From Caulobacteraceae bacterium (GTDB lineage: Bacteria > Pseudomonadota > Alphaproteobacteria > Caulobacterales > Caulobacteraceae): a DNA stretch of 64,000 nt. Numbering within the stretch: the first letter of the stretch is position 1; each line of letters starts with the position of its first letter. Positions 4,917 through 6,627 of the stretch are shown piece by piece. The notes below the pieces were generated by a model. That model ran no database searches. It worked only from the letters and a program-made list of their open reading frames with translations, and had not been told where the DNA came from. Position numbers and translations under genes: made by a program. The DNA lies in NCBI GenBank assembly GCA_947475735.1, contig CANJLQ010000011.1, forward strand, positions 62,001 to 126,000. Direction: 5' to 3'.

Positions 4917-5115
4917 AAAGGCTTGTAATGCTTAAGGAAAGCACGGAGGGGGCCGTCTCACTGGAAACGCCCCTCGCTAAGCCGGGCGCCTGATAGCACT
5001 TACCTCTGCCCCCCGCAACAGAGGCAGGAGGGCGCAGGCCCAGCCGGCTCAGAAAGACAGACGGCGCCCGACCCGTCAGGATCGGACGCCGCCCTTCACG
5101 CCTGGTCGCGGTCCC

Positions 5116-5271
5116 TTACTTGGGGCAGCAGTCCATCGCAGTCTTGCAGCAATCCAGGATCAGATCGCAGCAGCTCTGGACCATGCCGAGGACGACCGCC
5201 GGTTCGGCCGCGAATGCCGCAGTTCCGGATGCGATCAGCGACAGTGCTGCAAGGGCGAAGGTCTTCTTCAT
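5116..5271 (-). CDS. Small secreted Cys-rich peptide (51 aa), uncharacterised
   Basis: Own translation: MKKTFALAALSLIASGTAAFAAEPAVVLGMVQSCCDLILDCCKTAMDCCPK*; signal peptide with AFA-AE-like cleavage site, SD GGAG 8 nt upstream of ATG; too short for the supplied ORF track. Confidence 0.72.
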   Translation of the reverse strand: MKKTFALAALSLIASGTAAFAAEPAVVLGMVQSCCDLILDCCKTAMDCCPK

Positions 5272-5274
5272 TGG

Positions 5275-5291
5275 TCAATCTCCATGATTGA
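5275..5291 (-). promoter_or_regulatory. SD-containing hairpin before Cys-rich peptide
   Basis: Minus strand TCAATC-ATGGA-GATTGA; SD GGAG spans the loop and first stem base, 8 nt before ATG. Confidence 0.5.
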
Positions 5292-5320
5292 TTGAATTGA
5301 AAGTGTTCAGGTTTTCGTCG

Positions 5321-5671
5321 TCAAAGGACGCGGCTGCGCGGAGGCGGCGGTTCCGGCGCGGATGCGCGACCAGGCCTATCCCTGGATTGACGAACAGGAC
5401 GATCGAGCGACCCCAGGGGGATCGTTACGGTCACCGTCGCGAAGGTCGGCAGCAGACCACAGCCTATGGGCACCAAACACGCGGAGGTGCAGCAAGCAGG
5501 CTCCGGAAGCCTGTCGTCGCCCATCGGCATCACGTCATCACAGGCCGGCCGCGCAGTGGCCATGTCGCCGGACGCTGCCGATGCACTGACCGGGGAAACC
5601 GCAAGGACGAGGGTCAGCGCGAGGACCACCCGCCCCAGCCAACTCAGACTCTTCCGTTCGGCCGCGCTCAT
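5321..5671 (-). CDS. Secreted small protein with CCTSAC motif and Pro-rich C-terminus, uncharacterised
   Basis: ORF 116 aa; hydrophobic signal segment [18 protein letters not shown], Cys cluster [13 protein letters not shown]-terminal [11 protein letters not shown]; 49 nt upstream of the Cys-rich peptide on the same strand. Confidence 0.6.
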
Positions 5672-5796: not shown

Positions 5797-6627
5797 ATGT
5801 TCGACAGCATTACGCCTCTCCTCTCCGATCCGGCCGCCTGGGCGGCGCTCGTCACCCTGGTGGTGCTCGAGGTCGTGCTCGGCATCGATAATCTGATCTT
5901 CATCTCGATCCTGTCGAACAAGCTGCCGGAGGCTCAGCGTCAGCGCGTCCGCCGCATCGGCATCGGCCTGGCCCTGATCATGCGCCTGGCGCTGCTTTCG
6001 ATCATCGCCTGGCTGGTCGGGCTGATCCAGCCGGTCTTCACGGTGATGGGCAATGAGTTCTCGTGGAAAGATCTGATCCTGATCGCGGGCGGCCTGTTCC
6101 TGGTCTGGAAGGCGACCAAGGAAATCCACCACACCGTCGATCCGACGCCGTCGCATGATGTGCTGGACAAGAAGGACACGGCCATCATGAACGCGGGCTC
6201 GGCCATCGTTCAGATCATCATCCTGGACCTGGTCTTCTCGATCGACTCCATCCTGACGGCCGTCGGCCTGACCGAGCACCTGCCGATCATGGTGGTCGCG
6301 GTGCTGGCGGCGGTGCTGGTGATGCTGCTGGCGGCCGATCCCCTGGCCAACTTCATCGCCAAGAACCCCGGCGTGGTCATGCTGGCGCTGGGCTTCCTGC
6401 TGATGATCGGCATGGTCCTGATCGCCGACGGCTTCGGCTATCATGTGCCCAAGGGCTACATCTACGCCGCCATGGCCTTCTCGGCGGGCGTCGAGGCCTT
6501 GAACATGCTCAGTCGATCGTCCCAGTCCAAACAGGACAAGGCCAAGGCGGCGCGTCAGGCGGCGGACGCGGCCGAGGCCCGGGCGCGCGAAGCCGAGGCG
6601 GACGCCGCCTCCGAAACGGCGCGGTGA
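5797..6627 (+). CDS. TerC family integral membrane protein
   Basis: ORF 276 aa; [18 protein letters not shown] and [16 protein letters not shown] motifs typical of TerC. Confidence 0.93.

Follow-up and report, generated by a model that had tools for sequence, protein, structure and literature searches.

A candidate CutF-type metal-sensing leader paired with a Cys-rich secreted peptide in Caulobacterales

In a 64,000-nt stretch of a 3.47-Mb Caulobacteraceae genome (hereafter the window), two short genes on the minus strand probably form a self-contained operon, in which a CutF-like nascent-chain sensor of a metal, presumably copper, would control the synthesis of an exported Cys-rich peptide that is itself probably metal-binding and metallothionein-like. 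We lean slightly towards a broader reading, according to which the pair is a mobile-capable, self-contained Caulobacterales cassette, its CutF-type sensor gating an anti-Shine-Dalgarno (anti-SD) arm at the leader stop codon and so providing translational metal buffering through a metallothionein-like micropeptide. Known targets of CutF-type leaders are enzymes, pumps and transporters. A Cys-rich micropeptide as the output of such a leader has no report in the open-access literature searched, and with a metallothionein-like periplasmic peptide, a system of known kind would most likely gain a new output. The CutF survey sorted downstream genes by Pfam domain, so an unannotated peptide of ~50 aa would escape its notice. 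If the reading is true, Brevundimonas and Caulobacter hold a compact form of nascent-chain metal sensing that is easy to work with experimentally, composed of two short genes and a terminator, along with Cys-pair peptides of the periplasm that make up a new family.

The two-gene unit in the window

CutF of Rhodobacter capsulatus is exported by Sec, and copper binding to its CxxxC motif lengthens a pause on its Pro-rich C-terminus; the prolonged pause opens a stem-loop over the Shine-Dalgarno sequence (SD) of cutO (PMC9973294). CutF-like membership was judged here by the criteria of Ozturk et al. 2023. The leader ORF of the window (5321..5671, minus strand) encodes 116 aa and is CutF-like in size and signal, with a Sec-type signal peptide at the N-terminus that comprises a hydrophobic stretch and an AxA-type site (by inspection). 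Its Cys motif, read from the ORF translation, is C60 C61 T S A C65, in which C61 and C65 form a putative metal-binding CxxxC (5477..5491, minus strand) with C60 adjacent. The CxxxC precedes a PPPP run at residues 108-111 of 116, within the last 15 residues, which belongs to a putative ribosome-stalling PPPPR motif (5336..5350, minus strand; residues 108-112). A 49-nt spacer (5272..5320, minus strand) then leads to a co-directional gene with a putative role in metal homeostasis, the Cys-rich secreted peptide (5116..5271, minus strand; 51 aa), which has a signal peptide to about residue 21 followed by CC-x5-CC-x5-CC, the Cys pairs lying at 34/35, 41/42 and 48/49. The first-pass annotation had described a CCTSAC leader with a Sec-like signal and, 49 nt after it, a secreted triple-CC peptide, and both ORFs were confirmed in position and motifs. 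A feature absent from that annotation is the strong intrinsic terminator that closes the two-gene unit (5059..5094, minus strand; 16-pair stem with a T-rich tail); intrinsic terminators also follow most of the homologous peptides. The pair is flanked upstream by a divergent TerC-family gene (5797-6627) and downstream, beyond the terminator, by atpH (4857-4303).

A sigma-70 promoter scan at the pair found no promoter, and Rfam returned sub-threshold chance matches only. Pfam and NCBIfam gave no family match for the leaders. A match of the peptide to ExtJ (selenite/tellurite) at E 0.05 was put down to signal-peptide similarity, and no reading was built on the AlphaFold model of the peptide, which was computed from the single sequence and showed a long helix with a pLDDT of 68.

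The Sec signal peptide and the Cys pairs resemble those of bufferin precursors (PMC12452194), which raises the reading that the peptide is a RiPP precursor of bufferin- or oxazolin-like type, modified by an MNIO enzyme, and that the functional product is the modified metallophore. What the present peptide shares with the MNIO-modified bufferins and oxazolins (PMC12452194) is that it is small, Sec-exported, Cys-containing and copper-linked. In contrast to them, it has no accepted Pfam or NCBIfam match, and neither an MNIO nor a partner gene was seen with the pair: in the window the gene that follows the terminator directly after the peptide is atpH, MNIO is absent among the first 25 of 123 neighbour families, and the pair has no co-conserved enzyme. 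We therefore regard a RiPP precursor as highly improbable.

Conservation and coding selection

The peptide proved the better search handle, and searches with it began from the single sequence and continued with profiles. The 116-aa leader as sole query returned noise, and leaders were located by their anatomy upstream of the peptide. Within the genus, 132 genomes yielded ~45 peptide loci with E below 1e-12, roughly a third of the genomes, and profile searches also found the peptide in the wider family and in further Caulobacterales families. In a class-wide sample of 395 genomes, no copy was found outside the order; four matches from outside it were rejected as weak, partial, mostly over the signal-peptide part, or inside larger ORFs. 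Across the family the peptides are 44-69 aa long, and the end of the signal peptide and the Cys pairs are invariant.

Among 72 peptide loci examined, one lies at a contig end and 70 of the 71 testable ones (all but L129) have a leader upstream, which begins with a signal-like stretch and combines a Cys motif with a PP(P)R-type motif at the C-terminus. The Cys motif is CxxxC in nearly all loci and stands 39-45 residues before the last proline, again in nearly all; most of the 68 gaps measured between leader and peptide gene are 44-55 nt. The search for homologs, joint conservation and constant spacing, which the first-pass annotation had proposed as one check, thus came out in favour of the pair. 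Many loci are close relatives: dropping leaders more than 85% alike left 45, and a 60% limit left 30. Among the 574 genes called in 41 loci, 25 have a PPPR within 10 residues of the C-terminus, and every one of these carries a CxxxC at the leader spacing. Outside the signal, the Cys motif, the spacing and PPPR, the last of which is invariant in 14 diverse leaders, the leader is poorly conserved.

The nearly invariant CxxxC at a fixed spacing bears on a SecM-like reading, in which the leader stalls on the general status of Sec export, without metal sensing, and the peptide belongs to an envelope-stress response. A Pro-rich C-terminus on an exported leader would suit such a role, and arrest peptides that monitor Sec/YidC are described in PMC10987492. 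Like SecM-type arrest peptides, the present leaders would stall near the C-terminus of an exported chain and expose the SD of the next gene; unlike them, they hold the Cys metal motif, and their output is a peptide of metal-binding type, not a Sec component. The Cys motif, together with the copper-gene contexts and the profile link to leaders of copper proteins described below, makes the SecM-like reading very unlikely.

The coding character of both ORFs was assessed in three groups of relatives; the window copy itself has no relative close enough for this comparison. In these groups pN/pS was 0.20, 0.50 and 0.44 for the leader in frame and 0.19, 0.18 and 0.24 for the peptide, and the shifted frames of the leader gave 1.05-2.09. 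These values point to purifying selection on both ORFs as translated genes. The ORFs are more than chance, because they are conserved as a pair and show in-frame purifying selection in related groups.

In three genomes of the genus Brevundimonas (L107, L108 and L112) the pair lies between TerC and atpH, as in the window, and from this shared position the window copy has probably been inherited vertically. The TerC-atpH copies (L003/L108, L009/L112 and L107) encode longer peptides of 66-69 aa with an extra Cys/His-rich tail, for example CCKACVECIGDCAGHCADHGGH. Three of the 70 loci with a leader deviate in detail. The leader frame of L153 extends into the start of the peptide. Single-base indels break the peptide start and the leader in L111 (genome G069) and the leader end in L125 (genome G288), and each may reflect sequencing errors or a decaying copy. 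A copy filed under an archaeal MAG (L163, JALRLN010000278.1) has a peptide gene identical to a Brevundimonas one and is probably bin contamination.

Pairing of the Shine-Dalgarno sequence and the proposed mechanism

The SD of the peptide gene in the window is GGAG (5280..5283, minus strand), and it coincides with a 6-bp hairpin, TCAATC/GATTGA (5275..5291, minus strand; arms 5291-5286 and 5280-5275, -4.2 kcal/mol), which the first-pass annotation had proposed as its mask. The hairpin exists, and the masking role did not hold up. The GGA of the SD lies in the loop and the last G alone is paired, so the hairpin is not a convincing SD mask. The cost of opening the SD in the window is 5.12 kcal/mol compared with 5.13 kcal/mol in shuffled sequences, and the part of it that depends on the region covered by a ribosome is 0.35 compared with 0.47; as the cost equals that of the shuffles, the hairpin does not exceed chance expectation.

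The family as a whole behaves differently. We computed the SD-opening cost on the leader end plus spacer of 45 nonredundant loci and compared it with dinucleotide shuffles of the spacer; to mimic a covering ribosome, the computation was repeated without the leader and the 10 nt that follow its stop codon. The opening cost was 5.15 kcal/mol versus 3.92 kcal/mol in shuffles (Stouffer z 5.5), and the part depending on the covered region was 2.53 versus 0.68 kcal/mol (z 10.6), p being no higher than 0.1 in 51% of loci; in the 30 less related loci the corresponding z-values were 3.7 and 9.2, all of these z-values being inflated by the kinship left among loci. The partner of the SD is mainly nt +3 to +7 after the leader stop codon (1.65 versus 0.28 in shuffles for the 45 loci, and 1.34 versus 0.29 for the 30 less related ones), and the SD avoids pairing with the mid-spacer. 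The arms vary by lineage: for example, TGATCTCCA pairs with TGGAGATCA, TGATCCTG with CAGAGATCA, ATCCACTTGAAA with TTTTCAATGGAT, and, in a further lineage-specific case, TTCCGA with TCGGAA. MAFFT alignments of the spacers lose the register of the pairing, so we make no claim of covariation and relied on the shuffle tests instead. The SD-masking partner in relatives is thus the region of the leader stop codon, other than the hairpin noted in the window, and the CutF model calls for just this position. In several families the spacers share a TTCAATC-like motif ahead of the peptide start, which is usually not the partner of the SD.

In the window copy an SD mask is not recognisable, which makes it an exception within the family. 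Its leader continues with SRVL after PPPPR, and other C-terminally extended leaders are also without a consistent masking signal. The unmasked SD of the window speaks for an ordinary co-transcribed pair with no switch, in which the leader would be a periplasmic copper chaperone and the peptide would be made constitutively; the window copy especially could be such a case. Two observations count against it, namely that the leader is conserved mainly in its signal, Cys motif, spacing and PPPR, which is the pattern of a regulatory nascent chain, and that the SD is masked across the family. We consider a pair without a switch quite unlikely.

Since the pairs as a family share the sequence features of the CutF system, we infer metal-induced stalling, release of the SD and a metal-binding peptide in the periplasm. 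Sec would export the leader co-translationally, and by the time PPPR is translated, the CxxxC ~40 residues earlier would have left the ribosome and reached SecY or passed it. Metal on the CxxxC would lengthen the pause at PPPR, and a ribosome paused there would cover the leader stop codon together with several nucleotides beyond it; in most relatives these constitute the anti-SD arm. With this arm covered, the SD would be freed and the peptide made, to serve as a periplasmic metal binder, like metallothionein. Without metal, the leader would be completed and degraded, and the SD would remain masked. Because the SD pairs with the leader stop region time and again, the step in which a stall opens the SD could be tested directly by comparing natural sequences.

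Copper-linked relatives, neighbourhoods and spread

We built a leader profile (A9) from 14 diverse leaders and searched it context-blind in 196 genomes of the class. In other alphaproteobacterial families, the profile found ORFs that immediately precede the genes of a multicopper oxidase (L241), three cupredoxins (L242-L244) and a DUF411 protein (L245), with per-genome E-values of 1.5e-5 to 2.7e-4 for these matches before Cu-oxidase_3, Cupredoxin_1 and DUF411 genes. A sixth match outside the order (L246) was a low-complexity protein and was discarded. The layout of L241 is that of cutF-cutO. Because the profile retrieves leaders before copper-protein genes, the CutF reading is supported by sequence. 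The present pairs and CutF-CutO of R. capsulatus (PMC9973294, PMC8456105) share a small Sec-exported leader with CxxxC and a Pro-rich C-terminus at ~45-residue spacing, a short spacer, and an SD of the next gene that is masked by pairing, here across the family. They differ in that CutO is a Tat-exported multicopper oxidase whereas the output here is a Cys-rich peptide of 44-69 aa, in the anti-SD, which in the present pairs lies at the leader stop codon, and in that the authors assign CutF to DUF2946 whereas the present leaders have no Pfam DUF2946 match.

DUF2946 also comprises CruR of Bordetella pertussis, which has the same layout with the opposite sign (PMC9426467) and whose arrest on RAPP was shown in vitro (PMC12992588). 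By a CruR-type logic, the leader would stall by default and metal would relieve the stall, so that the peptide is made under metal scarcity for scavenging or delivery. CruR-bfrG (PMC9426467) and the present pair have in common an upstream ORF, copper-responsive in CruR, with a Cys motif and a C-terminal proline arrest motif ~45 residues apart. CruR differs in its CXXC and RAPP motifs, a 162-nt spacer and Rho-dependent termination; its export signal is not needed, and metal turns its operon off. CruR-type leaders are DUF2946 proteins with RAPP or RGPP ends and long spacers before uptake genes. The leader examined here has no Pfam match to DUF2946 (PF11162) and a PPPR rather than a RAPP-like C-terminus, and hhalign of the leaders against local DUF2946 proteins gave a probability of 1.1%. 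The window genome itself has a DUF2946 (CruR-type) leader (G000, contig C5:37616-37930; L233) that ends in APPPPARGPP and is followed after 70 nt by the gene of a 441-aa PepSY_TM-like protein (family assigned by eye), so that leaders of the CruR type and of the CutF type seem to coexist in this genome. This leader, with its ARGPP end before a PepSY_TM-like gene, is unmatched by the present leaders, which also counts against a CruR-type logic, as do the anti-SD at the leader stop codon, which fits an ON switch by stalling, and neighbourhoods that consist of copper resistance genes. We judge this logic unlikely for the present pairs.

In a large Brevundimonas group the gene order is CopA-type P-ATPase, DUF305, CopC, CopD, leader and peptide, and DUF411 and a SnoaL-like protein are encoded close by. 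In other lineages CopC/CopD, DUF411, a CsoR-type repressor or a CopA-type ATPase lies within a few kb of the pair (L096, L110, L113, L114, L119, L186, L195, L196 and L200). Copper-gene queries against the first 20 kb of the window gave no match, and many further copies sit by themselves amid housekeeping genes, without copper neighbours. The pair, having copper genes near some copies and not others, is therefore a self-contained unit that is repeatedly, if not always, found with copper genes. Of the proposal in the first-pass annotation, a CutF-like leader with a Cys-rich secreted output is supported by the co-conservation, the fixed spacing, the copper neighbourhoods and the leader profile, and the window hairpin as mask is the part that finds no support.

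One nearly identical version of the pair is present in several Brevundimonas species (L095, L097, L098, L099, L100 and L104). Its neighbours look conjugative or mobile by eye (DUF736-like, ArdC-like and relaxase-like), and this setting suggests horizontal spread of the pair as a cassette.
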